DNA of 64,000 nucleotides from Zavarzinia marina. Lineage in GTDB: Bacteria; Pseudomonadota; Alphaproteobacteria; Zavarziniales; Zavarziniaceae. The translations under genes and the position numbers were made by a program. How positions within the stretch are numbered: the stretch's first letter is position 1; every line of letters starts with the position of its first letter. Below are positions 32,401 to 42,968 of this stretch, piece after piece. The stretch spans positions 372,001-436,000 of the forward strand of contig NZ_JAKGSB010000003.1 of assembly GCF_021568905.1 (NCBI RefSeq). The letters run 5' to 3'. Below the pieces are notes generated by a model. It was not told the origin of the DNA and searched no databases. It saw only the letters and a program-made list of their open reading frames with translations.

Positions 32401-32835
32401 ATGGCGAAATCTGACGACACCTCGAGGCTCTTCAGGGCGATGGGGCTCGAAGGCGAACAAGGCAAATACAAGGACATCGGGGCGCTCTCCAGGCGACGGA
32501 GCGATGGCGCTGAGGATTTGCCGCTGGTCGCCGCCGTCGACGATCTGCTGAAGGCCCCCGCGACGCCCCGGAAAGCCGGGACGCCCGAAAAATCCGTGGG
32601 GCCCGAGAATTCCGTGAGGCCGAGACATGTCCCGGCCAGGGCCGCGCCCGATACCCGGCATGTCCCGGGCGCCGCGCCGCGCCAGGAAAACCCCAGATCC
32701 GAGAGCCATGCACAGGCGCCGCCCGCATCCGGCACCGGCCTCGGCCGGATCTTCCAGCGGCAGACCGTGGCGTCCGCCGAGCGGCCGCCGCCCCGGGGCA
32801 CACCGCTTCGAACCCTGTTCGACAGACTGCGCTGA
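32401..32835 (+). CDS. BcsR/BcsP-like cellulose biosynthesis accessory protein
   Basis: 144 residues, Pro/Ala/Arg-rich and largely disordered. The N-terminus, DDTSRLFRAMGLE, matches the DDIxxLFxxFG motif of BcsR/BcsP, and the C-terminus, TPLRTLFDRLR, resembles the short tail motif of BcsO/BcsP proteins. Such proteins regulate assembly or placement of the synthase with BcsQ. Start ATG 32401 is chosen over 32332 because the family motif follows directly. It couples to bcsQ through TGATG. The family call is likely, not certain. Confidence 0.65.
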   Translation: MAKSDDTSRLFRAMGLEGEQGKYKDIGALSRRRSDGAEDLPLVAAVDDLLKAPATPRKAGTPEKSVGPENSVRPRHVPARAAPDTRHVPGAAPRQENPRSESHAQAPPASGTGLGRIFQRQTVASAERPPPRGTPLRTLFDRLR

Positions 32836-33653
32836 TGCCGGTCGTCGCCTTCTCCTCACCCAAGGGCGGTGTCGGCAAGACGACACTGGCGGCCAATGTG
32901 GCGATTGCTCTCCATGATCTCGGGTGGGGGGTCGTGGCGATGGACTTCGACGTCCAGAACAGCCTGCGGCTCCATTTCGGGATCGAGCTTGCCGACGGGC
33001 GCGGCTATGTCGCCGCCCATGACCAGCCGGAGGAATGGCCGAATCTCGCCCTGCCGACGGATTCGGGCGTCTTCGTCCTGCCCTATGGCCAGGTGACGGA
33101 ACAGGAGCGCATTCTCTTCGAGCGCCACCTGATGGAGGAGCCGGACTATCTGCAGCGCGGCCTCGGCCCGATCCTGGAACGGCCGGACTGGGTCGTGCTG
33201 GCGGATCTGCCGCCGGGCCCGGCACCCGCGCTCCGCGCCCTCGACGGCGTGGGCGCGCTCCATATCTCGGTATTGCTGGCGGATGCCACATCGCTGTCCC
33301 TGTTGCCGCTCATCGAGCGCGGGCATTTCTACGGCGACAAGCGGCCCCTCGTGGTGGTCAACCAGGTCGACCCGCGCCGCCGTCTCAGCCGCATGGTCAC
33401 CGACTTCATCTCGGGCCGCATTCCCGAAAGCCTGCTCGGCCAGGTCTATCGCGACGAAGGCGCCGCCGAGGCGATCGGCTGGCAGCGTTCGGTCTTCGAA
33501 CAGGCGCCGAGCGGCGTCGCCGCGCGCGACATCCGCGCGGTCGCGGAACGCCTCTCGCTGCGCCTGAAGGGCGAGGCCGACGACACAGCCGAGACGGCCG
33601 AGGACGCGGCGCCCGAAGACGGCGAAGCCGGGGAGGCGCGCAAATGGCCGTAA
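32835..33653 (+). CDS. bcsQ: Cellulose synthase accessory ATPase BcsQ (ParA/MinD-like)
   Basis: 272 residues. A deviant Walker A, PKGGVGKTT, is at 9-17, followed by MDFDVQNSLRLHFG (switch Asp), as in BcsQ. BcsQ is needed for polar placement and assembly of the cellulose synthase. The C-terminal 30 residues are acidic and variable. It starts within the stop of the upstream gene and overlaps the bcsAB start by 10 bp. Confidence 0.92.
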   Translation: MPVVAFSSPKGGVGKTTLAANVAIALHDLGWGVVAMDFDVQNSLRLHFGIELADGRGYVAAHDQPEEWPNLALPTDSGVFVLPYGQVTEQERILFERHLMEEPDYLQRGLGPILERPDWVVLADLPPGPAPALRALDGVGALHISVLLADATSLSLLPLIERGHFYGDKRPLVVVNQVDPRRRLSRMVTDFISGRIPESLLGQVYRDEGAAEAIGWQRSVFEQAPSGVAARDIRAVAERLSLRLKGEADDTAETAEDAAPEDGEAGEARKWP

Positions 33654-36600
33654 CCGGCGAGGCCCCCCCGCGCGAGCCCTGGTACCGGCGCATCCGCCCG
33701 GGTTCGGGCTGGTTCACCGAACAGCTCGTCCCGCTCGAGGCGCTGCCGCGCTGGGTGCTCTATCTGGTCATCGGCTTCGGCATGCTGCTGTCGGTGCCGG
33801 TGATCGTGGCGCCCCTCGATCTTCGCCAGCAACTGATCTTCGGCGCCCTGGTCTTCCTGATCGCGCTTCTGGTGAACCGGCTCCGCTCCCAGCCGATCAC
33901 CATGGTGCTCAGCATGCTCTCGGTGCTGGTCTCCACGCGCTATCTCTACTGGCGCCTGACCGAGACCCTGGATTTCACCAATTGGTTCGGCGGCTTCCTG
34001 GGCGTCGGTCTGGTGATGGCCGAAATCTATGCCTGGCTGATCCTGATCCTCGGCTTCTTCCAGACCGCGGCCCCCCTCGACCGCCCGGCCGAGAAACTGC
34101 CGGACGATACCTCGCTCTGGCCGACGGTCGACGTCTACATCCCGACCTACAACGAGGAACTGGAAATCGTCGCCGATACGATCCTGGCGGCCCTCAACCT
34201 CGACTATCCGGAAGACAAGCTGCGGGTCTATGTGCTCGACGACGGCCGGCGCGAGCAGTTCCGCGAATTCGCCGAAAAGGCCGGCGCGGGCTACATCGTC
34301 CGGCCCGACAATGCCCATGCCAAGGCGGGCAACCTGAATCACGCCCTGAAGCTGACCGACGGCGACCTGATCGCCGTCTTCGATGCCGACCATGTGACCA
34401 CGCGCGGCTTCCTGCAGATGACCGTCGGCGGCTTCCTGACCGATCCGGCTCTCGCCCTGGTGCAGACCCCGCACCATTTCTATTCGCCCGATCCCTTCGA
34501 GCGGAACATCCGGGGCGGCGCCTCGATCCCGAACGAGGGCGAGCTGTTCTACGGCCCGGTGCAGAAGGGCAACGACCTCTGGAATGCCGCCTTCTTCTGC
34601 GGCTCCTGCGCCGTCATCCGGCGCGCGGCCCTGGACGACGTCGGCGGCTTCGCGGTCGAGACCGTGACCGAGGACGCCCATACCGCGCTTCGCATGCAGA
34701 AGCGCGGCTGGAACACCGCCTATCTCGACGTCGCCCTCGCCGCCGGCCGGGCGACGGAGCGCCTGGTGCTGCACGTCGGCCAGCGCGTGCGCTGGGCGCG
34801 CGGCATGACCCAGATCCTGCGGCGCGAGAACCCGCTGTTCGGCGGCAAGCTGACCCTGGCGCAGCGCCTCTGCTACCTGAACGCCATGCTGCACTTCCAG
34901 TTCGCCCTGCCACGCATCGTGTTCCTGACCGCGCCCATCGCCTTCCTGCTCCTGAACGAGAACATCATCGCCTCGACGGCGCCCATGGTGCTCGCCTATG
35001 CGGGGCCGCACCTGCTGCACGCGGCCCTGACCAACACCCGGGTGCACGGTCCCTATCGCCTGACCTTCTGGGGCGAGCTCTACGAGACGTCGCTGTCGTT
35101 CCATCTGGTCTGGCCGGTGCTCGCCGCCATGATCAATCCGCGCCTCGGCAAGTTCAACGTGACCGAGAAGGGCGGCCTTCTCGAGCGGGAGTATTTCGAT
35201 TTCCGCATCGCCCGCTTCCACATCTTCACCCTGGTCCTCGTCGTGCTCGGCCTCGGCATCGGCGTCTATCGTCTGATCTACGTCTGGGGCGACGAGACGA
35301 TCCGCGACGTGCTCCTGATGAACGTGGCCTGGGCCTCGTTCAACGCAGTGATCCTGATGGGGGCGATGGCGGCGGCCTTCGAGACCAGGCAGATCCGCCG
35401 CACCATCCGCCTGCCCATCATCATGCCCGTCACCGTGTTCACGGCGACGGGCCATGCCGTCTGCGCGACGACCGTCAACATGTCCATGGGGGGGGCCATG
35501 CTCCGCATGCCCGAAGGCACCGTGATCGAGGCCGAGGACGTCGAGGCCGTCGAATTTCCGGTCGCCGACCGGACCGAAGTCTTCCCCGCGACCGGCGTCG
35601 CGATCAACGGCGACAGCCTGCGTATCAGTTTCGGTGAAATGCCCGTATCCCTCTATCGTCTTCTCGTCGGCGTCGTCTTCGGGCGCGCCGACGCCTGGGT
35701 GGAGCGCCGCACGCGCCCACTCGACAAGCCCTCCCGCGCCGTCTTCTCGATCCTGCGGGCGACCTTCGGCCTGTTCCTGCGCTGGCGTCCCAAGGCGGCG
35801 CCCGCCGCGCAGCCGAAACCGGCGGCCGAGATCGCGGCCGCGGTTCAGGACGTGCCCTCGCGCACGATGGTGCCCGGTGCCCGCGTACCCGGCGCCCGCG
35901 TGGCCGATGCGCGGGCACCCGCCGCCGGCGGCGTCCTGCGCGGCGCGCTTCCCTTCGCCCTGGCGGCGGCGCTGGCCCTCGGCTTCGGGGCCGCGCCCGA
36001 TGCCAGGGCCCAGAATGCGCCGGTACAGCTCGTGCCCGGCACGGCGGCGCCGGACGCCGGCCCGACGACGGACGCCGGGGCCACCGGCGCAAGGATGCCG
36101 CAGCCGCCGGAAGGCCTGGACCCCGGCCCGGACTCGAGGCCCACCGTGGCGCCCGGATCGGCGTCTCCCGCCGCGTCGGCCCCGCCCGGCGTGCCGCCGC
36201 GTCCGACGGAAGGGCCTGCCGCGCCCGCGCCGGCGGCCATGGCACCCGCCACGTCCGCCCCCTATGTGCCGGCGGTCCCGGCCGCGCCGGCGGCCGGTTC
36301 GCGCAACGTCACCGTCAGCCTGCAGGATCTCGGCGCGCGCGAACCTCTCCGCCTGCTCGGCGTCGAATCCGAGATCGGCTTTCCCCTCGACATCCGTCAG
36401 GACGAAGTGGTGACGGCGGCCAAGATCACGGTCGAATTCGCCTATTCGCCGTCGCTGATACCGGACCTGTCCCATCTCTCGGCGCTGGTGAACGGCGTCG
36501 TCGTCGGCACCGTCGCCCTCCCGCGCGAGAATGCGGGCGGCATGAAGGTGGAGATTCCGGTCAACCCGGCGCTCTTCGTCCGCCGCAACCGTGTCGGCGT

Positions 36601-38419
36601 CCGTGTCATCGCCCATTACACGATGGAATGCGAGGACCCGGTCCACAGCAGCCTGTGGTCGATCATCGACAACGCGACGCGCCTCGATCTCACCCTGCAG
36701 TCGCTGCCGCCGGCGACGGACCTCGCGGCGCTGCCGGCGCCCTTCTTCGACGCGGCGGAGCGCAAGGCGCTGAAGCTGCCGATCGCGCTGCCGCCCAATC
36801 CCTCGCCCGAGCTTCTGAAGGCGGCGGCGGTCGTCGCGGGTTACTTCGCCGCCGAGGCGGGCGAACGCGGCGCCGACTTCCCGGTCACCCTCGGTTCCGT
36901 CGCGACCGGCGACCATGTCGTCGTGGCGACGCCGCAGAGCGCGCCGGCGGGTCTCGACCTGCCCGCCCTGACCGGCCCGACCATCGCCAATGTCGCCAAC
37001 CGGGGCGGCGGCCGCATCCTGCTGATCGCCGGGCGGAACGACGCGGAACTGAACGCGGCGGCGGCGACCCTCGCGCTCGGCTCGGTCACGCTGACCGGCC
37101 CCAGCGCCACGGTCGGAACGCCCAAGGTGGCGCCGCGCGAGGCCTATGACGCGCCGCGCTGGGTGCCGGACGACCGTCCGGTGCGTTTCGGCGAGCTGGT
37201 GGAACCCGACACCTTGCAGGGCTACGGTCTGATTCCGGGGCCGCTCGGCGTACCCTTCCGCACCGCGCCCGATCTCTTCGTCTGGAGCGACCGGGGCCTG
37301 CCGATGGTGGTGCGCTACCGCTATCCGCGCGGCGAATGGATGGATCTGGAACGCTCGCGCCTCGACGTTTCGATCAACGGCCAATATCTGAAGTCCCTGC
37401 CGGCGACGGGGCCCAACCTGCTCGACGACGTGCGCGACATCGTGGGCGACGATTTCGTCCTGAACGAAGCCCGGGTGAAGGTGCCGCCGTTCCAGGTCTA
37501 CGGCCGGAACCGGCTCGAATTCTTCTACGATCTCCGGCCGAGGAAGAAGGGCGAATGCGAAGGCGTGCTGCCGACCAACGTGGTTTCGGCGATCGACCCG
37601 GATTCGACCCTCGACATCTCGGGCGCGGAACGTTTCGCGGTGATGCCCAATCTGTCGTTCTTCGCCGGTGCCGGTTTCCCCTACACGAAATACGCCGACA
37701 TGGGCGAGACCGCGGTGATCCTGCCCGAACGCCCGAAGGCGGACGAGATTCGCGCCTTCCTCGACCTCATGGGGCGCTTCACGGAATTCACCGGCTTTCC
37801 GCCGCTGCGCCTCACGCTGCTGTTCGGCACGGGCGATCTGGCGCCGGCGCGCGGCCGGGACGTGATCGTCGTCGGCACGCTGGGCGACCGCCTGAATCTC
37901 GAGCGGCTGGCGACGGACGGGCCGCTCCGGGTCGCGGACGGGCGCCTGGCGATCGCGACCGGCCGGCCGATCGACCGCGCCTACGCGCTCCTCGACGGCG
38001 ACGACTGGGTCGAACAGCAGCGCGAGGCGGGCGAGCTTCTGATGACCAGCCCGGATTTCGCCGGGCTCGTCGGCGAACGGATCGGCGGGGCGGACGACCG
38101 CTCCCTCGTCATGGTGGTGGCGAGCAAGAGCGAACGGCTGCCGATCCTCGTCAGGTCCCTCAACGATCCCGACGTCAACGCGGCGGTGCAGGGCGATCTC
38201 GCGGTGCTGGACGGCAATGCCATGCGCAGCTTCCGCGTCGGCGACACCTATACGGTCGGCAGTCTCGGGTTCTATGGCGAACTGCGCTGGTATTTCCGCA
38301 ACAGGCCCCTGGTGCTGATCGCGTTCGCGGTGGGCGCCATGGTCCTGATCGGCATCGTGGTCTACACTTTGCTGCGGCTGATCACCAAGGCGCGGCTTCG
38401 CCGAAAGGCGACGACATGA
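33644..38419 (+). CDS. bcsAB: Fused cellulose synthase catalytic and co-catalytic subunits (BcsA-BcsB)
   Basis: 1591 residues in one uninterrupted frame. Residues 1-700 are BcsA: N-terminal helices, a GT2 domain with VLDDG (197-201), DAD in VFDADH, FFCGS, TED (342-344) and QRVRW (380-384), more helices, then a PilZ domain (about 580-690) with RRTIR and NMSMGG for cyclic di-GMP. Residues about 765-795 form a hydrophobic segment ending ARAQ. A Pro-rich linker leads to BcsB from about 884 with a C-terminal membrane anchor (about 1555-1578). It makes and translocates cellulose. Such fusions are known in Komagataeibacter. The start has GGGGAGG upstream. Confidence 0.95.
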   Translation: MAVTGEAPPREPWYRRIRPGSGWFTEQLVPLEALPRWVLYLVIGFGMLLSVPVIVAPLDLRQQLIFGALVFLIALLVNRLRSQPITMVLSMLSVLVSTRYLYWRLTETLDFTNWFGGFLGVGLVMAEIYAWLILILGFFQTAAPLDRPAEKLPDDTSLWPTVDVYIPTYNEELEIVADTILAALNLDYPEDKLRVYVLDDGRREQFREFAEKAGAGYIVRPDNAHAKAGNLNHALKLTDGDLIAVFDADHVTTRGFLQMTVGGFLTDPALALVQTPHHFYSPDPFERNIRGGASIPNEGELFYGPVQKGNDLWNAAFFCGSCAVIRRAALDDVGGFAVETVTEDAHTALRMQKRGWNTAYLDVALAAGRATERLVLHVGQRVRWARGMTQILRRENPLFGGKLTLAQRLCYLNAMLHFQFALPRIVFLTAPIAFLLLNENIIASTAPMVLAYAGPHLLHAALTNTRVHGPYRLTFWGELYETSLSFHLVWPVLAAMINPRLGKFNVTEKGGLLEREYFDFRIARFHIFTLVLVVLGLGIGVYRLIYVWGDETIRDVLLMNVAWASFNAVILMGAMAAAFETRQIRRTIRLPIIMPVTVFTATGHAVCATTVNMSMGGAMLRMPEGTVIEAEDVEAVEFPVADRTEVFPATGVAINGDSLRISFGEMPVSLYRLLVGVVFGRADAWVERRTRPLDKPSRAVFSILRATFGLFLRWRPKAAPAAQPKPAAEIAAAVQDVPSRTMVPGARVPGARVADARAPAAGGVLRGALPFALAAALALGFGAAPDARAQNAPVQLVPGTAAPDAGPTTDAGATGARMPQPPEGLDPGPDSRPTVAPGSASPAASAPPGVPPRPTEGPAAPAPAAMAPATSAPYVPAVPAAPAAGSRNVTVSLQDLGAREPLRLLGVESEIGFPLDIRQDEVVTAAKITVEFAYSPSLIPDLSHLSALVNGVVVGTVALPRENAGGMKVEIPVNPALFVRRNRVGVRVIAHYTMECEDPVHSSLWSIIDNATRLDLTLQSLPPATDLAALPAPFFDAAERKALKLPIALPPNPSPELLKAAAVVAGYFAAEAGERGADFPVTLGSVATGDHVVVATPQSAPAGLDLPALTGPTIANVANRGGGRILLIAGRNDAELNAAAATLALGSVTLTGPSATVGTPKVAPREAYDAPRWVPDDRPVRFGELVEPDTLQGYGLIPGPLGVPFRTAPDLFVWSDRGLPMVVRYRYPRGEWMDLERSRLDVSINGQYLKSLPATGPNLLDDVRDIVGDDFVLNEARVKVPPFQVYGRNRLEFFYDLRPRKKGECEGVLPTNVVSAIDPDSTLDISGAERFAVMPNLSFFAGAGFPYTKYADMGETAVILPERPKADEIRAFLDLMGRFTEFTGFPPLRLTLLFGTGDLAPARGRDVIVVGTLGDRLNLERLATDGPLRVADGRLAIATGRPIDRAYALLDGDDWVEQQREAGELLMTSPDFAGLVGERIGGADDRSLVMVVASKSERLPILVRSLNDPDVNAAVQGDLAVLDGNAMRSFRVGDTYTVGSLGFYGELRWYFRNRPLVLIAFAVGAMVLIGIVVYTLLRLITKARLRRKATT

Positions 38420-41400
38420 CATCGGGGCATGACATGAAGCGCGGGCAATCGATCGGGGCGTCCGCACCGGCGGGCCGGCCCATGACGGACGGCATGTTCC
38501 GGAACGCGCGGCGGCGCAGGCCGGGAATGCGGCATTCGCCGGCACTGTTCGCGCTGGTGCTCGCCCTGTCGCCGCTGGCCGCCGCCGCGACTCCCGGTCC
38601 GGCGGATGCCGTGCCCGCGAAGGACGCGGTCGGCACGCTTCTGGAACAGGCGGCGTTCTGGCGCGCCCAGGGCCGGGCCGATCTGGCGGTCCAGGCCATG
38701 CAGCGCGTCTATGCCCTGGCGCCGCGCGATCCGGCCGTGATTCGGCACCTCGGCCTCTTTGCCGTCGAGGACGGCGATCTCGCCGCCGCCCGGGGCTGGC
38801 TCGGGTTGCTCCGCCGCGTGGCGCCCGACGACGACGGTGCCGTCGCAGGCCTCGAAGCCGCGCTGTCGCGCGCCACGCCCCGCACGGCGGATCCCGCCGC
38901 CGTGATGCCGCAGGCGGCTGCCGCCGCCACCACGCCGCAGGCGGCGGCCCTGGCGCACGTCCGTCAGGACGCGCAAGGACCGCTGCGGGGGCCGGCCGCG
39001 CGCTATGCCGGCCATGTGGCGCTGCTGGCCGGCGCTGGCCTCGACGCCGAGGCGCTGGCCCTGCTCAATCGGCTGGAACAGACGCCGGGCATGGATCGCG
39101 ACGGGGTCGCGCGGCTGAACGCCGTGGTGGCGGCCGCGCGGGCCGACCGGCTGCGCGCCGCCGGGCAGCTTGCGGAAGCCTATGACGTCATCGCGATGGC
39201 CCTGGCCCTGACCGCCGACGATGCCGGCCTGCAGGCGGCGCTCGCGCGTCTCTACGATGCCGGCGGCCTGCACCGCGAGGCGCTCGCGGTCTATGGCCGC
39301 CTGCTGACCGTCGATCCCGATGACCCGATCCTGATCCGGGGCGCGGTCGACGCCGCGATCGGCGCGGGCGATCCGGCAACGGCCGGGCGCCTGCTGGCGA
39401 CGGCGCTGGCGCGCCTGCCGGGCGATCCGGACCTTCGCGCCGCCGCGGATCGGCTGGCGGCGGGCCGTGGTACGCCGGCGGTCACGACGATCGCCATGGC
39501 CACCGGCAATCCGTTCCGCCGGGCGGAAGAAGGGCCCGCCGACGTATCGGCGCCGACGACCCTGACCCGGATCGAGGAACCGGCGGCGGCCCCGGCCCGG
39601 CCCCGAATCCTGCCCCGAATCCTGCCCGCGCGCCCAACCATCGTCGCCGCCCCCGCACCGCCCGCCGCGCCCGACCGCCCACGCCCGGTCGCGACCGAGG
39701 CGGCGCTGATGCCCCGGACCGCCGCTTCCGGCGCGACGTCCGGCGGGCTCTATCTGCCCGGATCGGAAATCCGCTCGGTCTATGTCCCGCCCGAGGGCCC
39801 GGCCGAAACAACGGCCCCCGCCGGCACGGTCGGCGCCTATGGCCAGCCGTTGACGCCGCCGCAGGTGACCTATCCGCCGCCGGGGGCGGCACCGGTCGCG
39901 GTCGAATATGCCGCCGCGCCGTCGCCCGCGCTCGCCAATGATCCGATGGCCCGGGACATCGACCGTCAGCTCGCCGAACTGCGGGAGCAGACGGTCGCCT
40001 TCGTGAGGGGCGACGTGCGGCTTCGTTCGCGCGACGGCGAATCCGGACTTTCGGAACTGACGGAACTGGGGGCCGATTTCTCGGCTTCGGTATCGCCCTT
40101 CGGCGATGGCCGTCTGACCCTGACCGCGACCCCCATCAGTCTCGATGCCGGCACCGCATCGGACATCGGCGCCCAGCGCTTCGCCCTCAATCCCCTGGTG
40201 CCGACCGAGGTCACCGAGACCAATCGCGACGAACTGGAGACGCTGGTCACCAGCAACCCCAACGTCTGGAACTATCTGACGACGGAACAGAAATCGATCC
40301 TGGGGGCGGCCATCACGGCGCCCACGGTGACGCCGCTGGCGGATTTCACCGCCGCCAATCCCGACATCGTCGCTGCCCTTTCGAGCGATCTGCAGACGGC
40401 GATCACCGACGCCCTGGCGGCCAATGCCGATGCCGCGCTCAGCACTTTCGTCACCCTCAACCCGACGATCCGGACCTTCCTGACCACGGCCCAGGAAGCG
40501 ACCCTGGACGCCGCCATCGCGACCGAGATCTATGCCTTCGATTCGGCGCGCCTCGCCGCGCTCCGGCGCGCGCCGTCGCAGAAGACGACCGGCCTCGGGC
40601 TCAATCTCGCCTATGCCAACGGGCCGCTGACGGTCGATGTCGGTACTTCGCCGCTCGGCTTCGCGGTCGAGAACGTGGTCGGCGGCGTCAATTGGACGCC
40701 GCGCCTGTCCGATACCGCGCAGGTCTCGATCACGGCGGAGCGGCGCGCCGTGACCGACAGCATGCTGGCCTTCGCCGGGACCGAGGATCCCTTCACCGGC
40801 GAGACCTGGGGCGGCGTCACGCGGACCGGCGGTCGCGTCATGTTCGCCTCGGACGACGGCAATGTCGGCCTCTATGCCGGCGGCGGCTATTACGAGCTGG
40901 AGGGCGAGAATGTCGCCGACAACAGCCAGGTCGAGGCGACGGTCGGCGCCTATTTCCGCCCCTATCGCACCGAGCGCAGCGAGCTGAAGGTCGGCCTCAA
41001 CCTGAGCTATACCGACTACGACCGCAATCTCGGCGAATTCACCTTCGGCCACGGCGGCTATTTCAGCCCGCAGAACCTGATTTCCCTGGCGATCCCGGTC
41101 GACTACGAGGGCAAGAGCCGCGACGGCAAATGGCAATATGGTCTCGGCGGCGCCATCGGCTACCAGTCCTACGACAAGGAAGCCTCGCCCTATTTCCCGA
41201 CCAATGCCGCCTATCAGAGCATCCTCGATCAGGAGGCCGACGCCGGCCTGATCTCCTCGTCCTATTATCCGGCCGTCAGCGAGAGCGGCGTCGGCGGCAA
41301 TATCCACGGCAGTTTCGACTATGAGATCGACGACCGCACCACGGTCGGCGGCGCCGCGTCCTACGACAGTTTCGGCGAGTTTTCGGAGAGTTCGGTCATG

Positions 41401-41439
41401 TTCTACGTGAAGCATTTGGTCGACGAGGTGCTGCCATGA
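38416..41439 (+). CDS. bcsC: Cellulose export protein BcsC with an unusual repeat insertion
   Basis: 1007 residues. A signal segment (about 44-58, LFALVLALSPLAAAA) is followed by TPR-type helices (about 70-350), then a disordered Pro/Ala-rich region (about 365-510). The C-terminal barrel domain (about 530-1007) includes GLGLNLAYANGPLTVDVGTS and ends KHLVDEVLP. The TPR set is shorter than in enterobacterial BcsC. Three 34-residue repeats interrupt the barrel domain at 607-708. It forms the periplasmic and outer-membrane conduit for cellulose. It is coupled to bcsAB and bcsD by ATGA. Confidence 0.92.
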   Translation: MTSGHDMKRGQSIGASAPAGRPMTDGMFRNARRRRPGMRHSPALFALVLALSPLAAAATPGPADAVPAKDAVGTLLEQAAFWRAQGRADLAVQAMQRVYALAPRDPAVIRHLGLFAVEDGDLAAARGWLGLLRRVAPDDDGAVAGLEAALSRATPRTADPAAVMPQAAAAATTPQAAALAHVRQDAQGPLRGPAARYAGHVALLAGAGLDAEALALLNRLEQTPGMDRDGVARLNAVVAAARADRLRAAGQLAEAYDVIAMALALTADDAGLQAALARLYDAGGLHREALAVYGRLLTVDPDDPILIRGAVDAAIGAGDPATAGRLLATALARLPGDPDLRAAADRLAAGRGTPAVTTIAMATGNPFRRAEEGPADVSAPTTLTRIEEPAAAPARPRILPRILPARPTIVAAPAPPAAPDRPRPVATEAALMPRTAASGATSGGLYLPGSEIRSVYVPPEGPAETTAPAGTVGAYGQPLTPPQVTYPPPGAAPVAVEYAAAPSPALANDPMARDIDRQLAELREQTVAFVRGDVRLRSRDGESGLSELTELGADFSASVSPFGDGRLTLTATPISLDAGTASDIGAQRFALNPLVPTEVTETNRDELETLVTSNPNVWNYLTTEQKSILGAAITAPTVTPLADFTAANPDIVAALSSDLQTAITDALAANADAALSTFVTLNPTIRTFLTTAQEATLDAAIATEIYAFDSARLAALRRAPSQKTTGLGLNLAYANGPLTVDVGTSPLGFAVENVVGGVNWTPRLSDTAQVSITAERRAVTDSMLAFAGTEDPFTGETWGGVTRTGGRVMFASDDGNVGLYAGGGYYELEGENVADNSQVEATVGAYFRPYRTERSELKVGLNLSYTDYDRNLGEFTFGHGGYFSPQNLISLAIPVDYEGKSRDGKWQYGLGGAIGYQSYDKEASPYFPTNAAYQSILDQEADAGLISSSYYPAVSESGVGGNIHGSFDYEIDDRTTVGGAASYDSFGEFSESSVMFYVKHLVDEVLP

Positions 41440-41930
41440 GCATGTTCGCCCGTCCCGCCGCACCCGCGACCGCCACCTCCGACGTCACCGATCCGGAAAG
41501 CCTCTATGCCCTCGCGCTGCGTACCGAAGGGCCGCTGCCGCTGTTCCTCGACGCCGTGGTCGAGGAATTGTTCGCCATGGCCAGCGGCGACGACGCGGCC
41601 GCCTTTCTGCGTCTCGTCGGCGGCCATATGGCACGCGGCATGAGCCTCGAGGCGGTGGAGACCCTGGAAGCCCTGGAAGGCCTGATGAACGCGGCCCTGA
41701 CCGCCAGGCGCTGGGGCTGGGTGCGCCTGTCGGAGGTCGAGGCGGGCATCCGCATCCGCCACGGCGGCCTGCCGGTCCGCCCGTCGTCCACCACCGGCCA
41801 GGCCATGGCGGCGCTGCTCGAAGGGCTCTACGGCCATTGGCTGGAGCATGCCGGCGGCAGCGCCGATCTGAAGGCCCGCCATACCGGCACTCTTGGGGGC
41901 GAGACGGTCGAACTGGTCTACGGCCGGTAA
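41436..41930 (+). CDS. bcsD: Cellulose synthase subunit D (BcsD)
   Basis: 164 residues, mainly helical, matching BcsD: VVEELFAMASGDDAAAFLRL, MSLEAVETLEALEGLMNAAL and a C-terminal LEGLYGHWLEHAGG. In acetic acid bacteria BcsD forms a periplasmic octameric ring that guides glucan chains into crystalline fibrils. Its presence places this operon in the BcsD-containing class. It starts at an ATGA overlap with bcsC, and bcsZ follows after 3 bp. Confidence 0.92.
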   Translation: MSMFARPAAPATATSDVTDPESLYALALRTEGPLPLFLDAVVEELFAMASGDDAAAFLRLVGGHMARGMSLEAVETLEALEGLMNAALTARRWGWVRLSEVEAGIRIRHGGLPVRPSSTTGQAMAALLEGLYGHWLEHAGGSADLKARHTGTLGGETVELVYGR

Positions 41931-41933
41931 GGC

Positions 41934-42968
41934 ATGCGGGCTCTCGCGCGCCTCGTCCTCCTTGCGGCGATCGTGTTCGGCGCGCTGGGCGGCGTGGCGA
42001 CCGCCCAGGCGCCAGTGCCCTGGACCGATTTCAAGGGCCGTTTCCTGAAGCCGGACGGCCGCATCGCCGACAACGGCAACGACGGCGTCAGCCACAGCGA
42101 GGGCCAGGGCTTCGCCATGCTGCTGGCCGTGATCGCGAACGACCGGCCGGCCTTCGACCTGATCTGGGGCTGGACGCGGGATCACCTGCGGCGCGAACAG
42201 GATGCGCTGTTCGCCTGGCGCTGGGTGCCCGGCGCCGGTGATCCGGTGCCCGACCGCAACGATGCGGCGGACGGCGACATCTTCATCGCCTGGGCCCTGA
42301 TGCGTGCCGGCAGCCGCTGGGAAGATCCCGGACTGACCGAAGCCGGCGCCGAGATCCGCCGGGCGATCCGCGAGAAGCTGGTGATCGAGCACGTCGGGCG
42401 TCACCTGCTGCTGCCGGGCGTCGAGGGGTTCCGCACCGAGGGCGAGGCGGGCAAGCCCGGCGACGTCATCGTCAATCCGTCCTACCTCGTGTTTCCGGCT
42501 TTCCTGGCCTTTCACGCGGCAGCGCCGGAGGAGGGCTGGGACCGGGTGATCGCCGATGGCTTCACCCTTTTGCTGGATGCCCGTTTCGGGCGCTATGGCC
42601 TGCCGCCGGACTGGCTGGTGGTGACCGGGGACGGGCGTCTGGCGCCGGCGCCGGGCTGGCCGCCGCGTTTCGGCTTCGATGCCTTCCGGGTAGCACTCTA
42701 TCTCGCCTGGGGGCGGGCACCGGCGGAGCAGTTCGGGCCCCTGCGCGGCTATTTCACCGGTTACGCCGGGCGGCTGCCGGCCTGGGCCGATCTCGCCACC
42801 GGCGCCATCGCCGACTATCAGGGCTCGCGCGGGATGCGGGCGGTCGCCGGTCTGGTCCTCGGCGTCCGCGACGTCGCGGCCGAGGTCACGCAGCCGGACG
42901 ACGAATATTATGCCGCCGTCATCGCCCTGCTGACCGCCGCCGCCTGGCACGACCGCGCCCATCCCTGA
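41934..42968 (+). CDS. bcsZ: Periplasmic endo-1,4-beta-glucanase BcsZ (GH8)
   Basis: 344 residues. A signal peptide (1-25, ending ATAQA) precedes a GH8 barrel with the catalytic acid E56 in SHSEGQGFAMLL, the Asp motif AADGDIFIAWAL at 111-122, and the base Asp in RFGFDAFRVALYLAWG. BcsZ trims cellulose during export and is needed for normal fibre formation. It is the last gene of the operon. It ends base-to-base against the convergent MFS gene (no gap at 42968/42969). Confidence 0.94.
   Translation: MRALARLVLLAAIVFGALGGVATAQAPVPWTDFKGRFLKPDGRIADNGNDGVSHSEGQGFAMLLAVIANDRPAFDLIWGWTRDHLRREQDALFAWRWVPGAGDPVPDRNDAADGDIFIAWALMRAGSRWEDPGLTEAGAEIRRAIREKLVIEHVGRHLLLPGVEGFRTEGEAGKPGDVIVNPSYLVFPAFLAFHAAAPEEGWDRVIADGFTLLLDARFGRYGLPPDWLVVTGDGRLAPAPGWPPRFGFDAFRVALYLAWGRAPAEQFGPLRGYFTGYAGRLPAWADLATGAIADYQGSRGMRAVAGLVLGVRDVAAEVTQPDDEYYAAVIALLTAAAWHDRAHP

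Follow-up and report, generated by a model that had tools for sequence, protein, structure and literature searches.

Structures are available for the cellulose exporter BcsC of E. coli (PDB 6tzk, 9b8a and 9b8h; Pfam PF05420), and the TPRs that precede the N-terminus of the BcsC barrel are periplasmic (PMC11379886). A gating loop of BcsC has been reported, as have clustered pores in the acetic acid bacteria, and BcsD has been described as a subunit that nascent chains require in order to crystallise (PMC7811197). In the polysaccharide exporter PelB, the loops between strands 7 and 8 (which includes a short helix), 11 and 12, and 15 and 16 are extracellular, and Plug-O is an external, length-variable loop that forms a dome and whose partial deletion left conductance unchanged (PMC12141448). 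The handling of chains just outside of the BcsC pore is poorly known. The window (the whole stretch of DNA analysed, 64,000 nucleotides from Zavarzinia marina) encodes a BcsC in which a helical domain of three repeats is predicted to occupy the loop between barrel strands 3 and 4.

Gene context and predicted structure of the BcsC insert

The bcs cluster of the window lies on the forward strand in the order bcsQ-like gene (32835..33653; a ParA/MinD-type ATPase with the P-loop KGGVGKTT in its translation and homologues in the genus), fused bcsA-bcsB (33653..38419; glycosyltransferase, PilZ and BcsB), bcsC (38416..41439), bcsD (41436..41930; PF03500) and bcsZ (41934..42968; a GH8 endoglucanase), and no cluster-specific gene beyond the usual bcs set was found in it. 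The fusion of bcsA and bcsB is a single ORF of 1588 aa. BcsC (1007 aa), co-encoded with bcsA, bcsB and bcsZ, consists of approximately eight TPRs, a proline-rich linker and a 16-strand outer-membrane barrel with the insert. The match to PF05420 (BCSC_C; E 5.6e-97) covers residues 705-1002 and a stretch ahead of the insert, while TPR_19 and TPR_14 are above cut-off in the N-terminal region. The TPR region is short (residues ~60-350, ~290 residues; ~8 TPRs compared to 19 in E. coli) and is followed by a proline-rich and very GC-rich linker of ~145 residues (~350-495), with the TPRs and linker together at 38593-39900. The number of TPRs in BcsC appears to vary within Zavarzinia. A second TPR protein of ~908 aa with ~32% identity to the BcsC TPRs occurs in G000 (C9:879849-882185) and its genus mates, and is possibly from another export system.

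An AlphaFold model of BcsC residues 495-1007 (model residue 1 = 495), made with 43 BcsC sequences, has a mean pLDDT of 92.4, a pTM of 0.84 and pLDDT values of 83-94 for the blocks of the insert. The 16 strands fall, in model numbering, at 35-45, 54-65, 72-85, 228-241, 244-250, 260-266, 274-284, 303-319, 323-337, 342-357, 361-374, 393-406, 412-427, 460-476, 481-492 and 495-507, and the barrel aligns with E. coli BcsC 6tzk (VIA-align Z 40.2, 374 residues) and with PelB (Z 25.0). Between strand 3 (40111..40152; residues 566-579), directly ahead of the loop, and strand 4 (40579..40620; residues 722-735), the model places nine helices, three per repeat unit, and a short exit helix. As the original prediction had stated, the segment is modelled as helical and as interrupting the barrel region, which rules out ordinary barrel strands. 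The repeats had been placed at residues 607-708, where the reading frame and every motif named in that prediction are present, though the insertion itself is slightly larger, at ~117 aa beyond the short-loop BcsC (40207..40557; residues ~598-714).

The three units are unit 1 (40228..40329; residues 605-638, DELETLVTSNPNVWNYLTTEQKSILGAAITAPTV; helices 604-613, 615-618 and 623-633), unit 2 (40330..40431; residues 639-672, TPLADFTAANPDIVAALSSDLQTAITDALAANAD; helices 641-647, 649-654 and 657-669) and unit 3 (40432..40533; residues 673-706, AALSTFVTLNPTIRTFLTTAQEATLDAAIATEIY; helices 675-681, 683-688 and 691-702), all helices being from the AlphaFold model. They are followed by a conserved anchor, Y.FD..R.A.LRR (40534..40569), which includes a short helix (710-714) and returns the polypeptide to the barrel. 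Each 34-residue unit would comprise a short helix, an Asn-(Pro) kink, a second short helix, a T-T or T-P turn and a longer helix, and the three units may stack to form a small helical domain. Self-comparison of the insert peaks at shifts of 34 and 68, and the BLOSUM62 score of 51 at shift 34 was matched by none of 20,000 shuffles, nor by any of 4,000 shuffles scored at their best shift in the range 10-60. The exact 34-34-34 spacing previously proposed holds in three of the four insert-bearing species; in the other, G001, unit 2 is 31 aa long. Three positions are the same in all 12 units from the four species (L3, N10 and A28), positions 6, 7, 13, 17, 25 and 29 are mostly hydrophobic, and the flanks that hold the insert to the barrel are conserved (N-x-L-x-P-T and Y-x-F-D-x-x-R). 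The domain is acidic and sparse in aromatics (W1 Y2 F5 in 130 aa), several of which are core repeat positions; the Trp of unit 1 is invariant, and unit 3 has a Trp in two species.

When the insert was folded alone (four sequences), units 2 and 3 reached a pLDDT of ~90 and unit 1 ~62-67. Comparison of this isolated model, in which unit 1 is weak, to PDB and BFVD returned no convincing match (best VIA Z 2.0; Foldseek rows, at E ≥3 and TM ~0.2, judged to be noise). The units are not TPRs, as both the barrel model and the isolated model give them three helices each and not two antiparallel ones, and TPR profiles matched neither the insert alone nor the four-member insert alignment at E values up to 1. 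A match to PF03480 (DctP; E 0.006) was below the family cut-off and is judged to be chance.

The original prediction had left to structure modelling which face of the barrel the segment occupies. In the model, connections after even strands are short (6, 2, 7, 3, 3, 5 and 4 residues), while those after odd strands tend to be longer, 18-32 residues in several cases (8, 142, 9, 18, 4, 18, 32 and 2). With a periplasmic N-terminus and an even number of strands, the loops after odd strands lie outside, so that an insert between strands 3 and 4 would be extracellular. PelB aligns over the same strands and its 7-8, 11-12 and 15-16 loops are external, indicating that loop 3-4 is external too; the short helix of PelB loop 7-8 is also present in the window BcsC model, at model residues 289-292. 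Strand parity, the periplasmic N-terminus, the lengths of the turns and the comparison to PelB together lead to the prediction that the insert forms the second external loop of the barrel. Of the locations first proposed, the external one is supported by this topology, which argues against docking to a partner in the periplasm. A periplasmic loop that docks to BcsD was rejected based on the strand count of the model and the topology of PelB; docking on that side, to BcsD for example, is unlikely for an extracellular loop.

Distribution, age and constraint of the repeat

The insert is present in four of the five Zavarzinia genomes for which the barrel is available: G000, G001, G003 (Z. aquatilis HR-AS, locus L030) and G005 (a Zavarzinia sp. 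MAG, locus L029). The BcsC of G002, also Zavarzinia, ends at a contig end and was not counted. There is a short loop at the insertion point, e.g., RFGTNPLLAPARPLRPADQTDTGLGL, in G004, of the same genus, and in G006, of a sister genus in the same family. At the G004 locus (L095; C11:2051500-2058500), the BcsC matches to the TPRs and to the barrel are in separate reading frames, which suggests a frameshift or an assembly error in that genome.

Outside of Zavarzinia, the repeat was not found in the BcsC barrels examined, sampled by Pfam family from 387 Alphaproteobacteria and 397 Pseudomonadota genomes and from 198 genomes of the order of G554, and no relatives of the insert were found in Pfam, NCBIfam, PDB sequences, plasmids or phages. 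The original prediction, that no such unit was known in BcsC and that a profile search of BcsC and other proteins should decide, is borne out to the extent that nearly all other BcsC examined lack a counterpart and that no relative was found beyond the genus; the absence rules out an insert common to BcsC generally. A module copied elsewhere in the genome was also ruled out, with the insert profile hitting a single place in its own genome, without a further copy, and producing only weak per-genome matches (E ~1e-3, judged to be chance) in 398 Pseudomonadota genomes. A contig scan with genus-specific patterns returned two named loci only. No paper describing such a BcsC insert was found in a literature search thin on subscription journals, which is weak evidence of novelty.

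The repeat is old, as no tandem array was detected at the DNA level across the units (TRF), which rules out a recent DNA tandem expansion. Orthologous units of different species share 51-62% identity on average and different units 24-36%, which dates the triplication to before the insert-bearing species diverged. Pairwise NG86 estimates within Zavarzinia give the insert a dN of 0.20-0.45 and a dS of 0.58-0.68, while dN elsewhere in BcsC is 0.49-0.87 for the linker and 0.07-0.27 for the remaining barrel. The insert is thus shown to be under moderate purifying constraint, weaker than that on the barrel and stronger than that on the linker, with ratios that are rough due to the high dS.

Other lineages of Pseudomonadota have helical-looking inserts at the same loop, which the original prediction did not foresee. 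These are ~150-190 aa and of a coiled-coil type in L090, L091, L133 and L134, with inserts of ~110 aa in L136 and L139 and ~70 aa in L101 and smaller extensions in L071, L078, L079, L102 and L104; those of the f213/f215 group resemble coiled coils. No profile similarity connects the Zavarzinia insert to the L090/L091/L133/L134 or L136/L139 groups, in comparisons of low power due to small alignments. All seven loci with inserts of ~70 aa or more are in operons with bcsD. In a barrel tree of 59 BcsC rows, with the insert columns removed, BcsC with an adjacent bcsD group together as a single clade (26 rows, SH-aLRT 96). A long loop is present in 11 rows of this clade and in none of the 33 others, for many of which the absence of bcsD was judged from only ~0.8-1.5 kb downstream. 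The loop label changes three times on this tree and the bcsD label once, making the link between long loops and bcsD a property of the clade that is phylogenetically confounded, and not an independent correlation. Constraining all long-loop rows to a single clade is rejected (p-AU 5e-9), while the narrower grouping of Zavarzinia with f213/f215 is not rejected (p 0.37). The first of these results and the lack of profile similarity were the grounds for setting aside a shared origin of the inserts across lineages. That unrelated helical additions have this same position in other bacteria argues that the loop repeatedly gains new domains. In E. coli-like BcsC (L059-L068), the strand 3-4 loop has a cysteine pair (e.g., TCATQDC and TCYETPC) that possibly closes an external loop by a disulfide.

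Proposed role of the domain at the pore exit

The insert is probably an extracellular domain, specific to its lineage, on a BcsC that is ordinary in other respects, and at the exit it would serve nascent cellulose as a cap, spacer or guide. From its place in the second external loop, it would shape the space where cellulose chains leave the pore and first associate, may also or instead shield the pore mouth, and would be neither a gate nor a periplasmic docking site. It may be the same sort of feature as Plug-O, the loop of PelB that varies in length. The low confidence of unit 1 when folded alone and the existence of close relatives that lack the domain both count against this reading.

Those relatives, together with strand 3-4 inserts that are unrelated between lineages, are what would be expected if the loop drifts as a surface feature, without a specific export role, and changes, like the loops of porins, under pressure from phages, predators or LPS. 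Plug-O also varies in length without a gating role (PMC12141448). Within Zavarzinia, however, the domain is retained, the repeat register is kept and purifying constraint exceeds that of the linker, leaving drift a doubtful account.

Direct binding of the domain to the emerging chain or sheet, with a part in ordering it into fibrils as a fibre-binding or crystallisation guide, is unlikely. This role is made attractive by the link between BcsD and crystallisation (PMC7811197), by the restriction of long strand 3-4 inserts to BcsC with bcsD in the operon, by the position of the domain beside the exit, and by the tryptophans of units 1 and 3. Yet the association with bcsD is one event on the tree and not many, numerous bcsD-type BcsC, including that of G004, lack an insert, and the aromatics are few and partly accounted for by the repeat core. 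No carbohydrate-binding family in Pfam or NCBIfam matches the insert, although a new binding domain would be unlisted.

Helical repeats are common interaction platforms, and the domain could conceivably make contact with an adjacent BcsC or some other surface protein and cluster pores in rows, an arrangement for which the clustered pores of acetic acid bacteria are a precedent (PMC7811197). Such docking is rather improbable: no partner was found, the cluster has only the usual bcs set, and, provided that the topology is correct, BcsD and other periplasmic partners are across the membrane from it. A plug or gate, folding into or over the channel and controlling its opening, is very unlikely despite the external loops that occlude polysaccharide barrels and the gating loop on record for BcsC (PMC7811197), because the gate of PelB is its 15-16 loop and not 3-4 and conductance survived the partial deletion of Plug-O (PMC12141448), ~100 helical residues would hardly fit a barrel of ~1.5 nm, and close relatives lack the domain.

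A broader and distinctly speculative proposal is that, in the bcsD-type branch, the external strand 3-4 loop recurrently accepts helical domains, unrelated to one another, that arrange cellulose chains or pores on the surface of the cell, as an unrecognised layer on the outer face of the cellulose machinery, of which the Zavarzinia triple repeat, a new small repeat family, would be one instance. A genus-specific and removable external domain with natural relatives that lack it would offer a clean test of exit-surface effects on yield, fibre width and crystallinity. The loop tolerates large insertions and has potential use in exporter engineering or tagging.

Comparison with known systems

The window protein shares with E. 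coli BcsC the 16-strand barrel after periplasmic TPRs, the family and the role in the operon, but the E. coli type has a short strand 3-4 loop where the window protein has the additional ~117 helical residues, and the window protein has far fewer TPRs. Plug-O of PelB is likewise an extracellular, partly helical and length-variable loop over a polysaccharide-export barrel; it lies between strands 11 and 12, has 31 residues and lacks repeats, whereas the Zavarzinia insert is in the 3-4 loop. The BcsC inserts of other lineages have the same insertion point, helical look and operon with bcsD, but are without profile similarity to the Zavarzinia repeat. The TPR, present elsewhere in BcsC, is also a helical repeat of 34 residues, but it is built of two helices, while the insert unit is predicted to have three short helices and an Asn-Pro kink, with other positions conserved.
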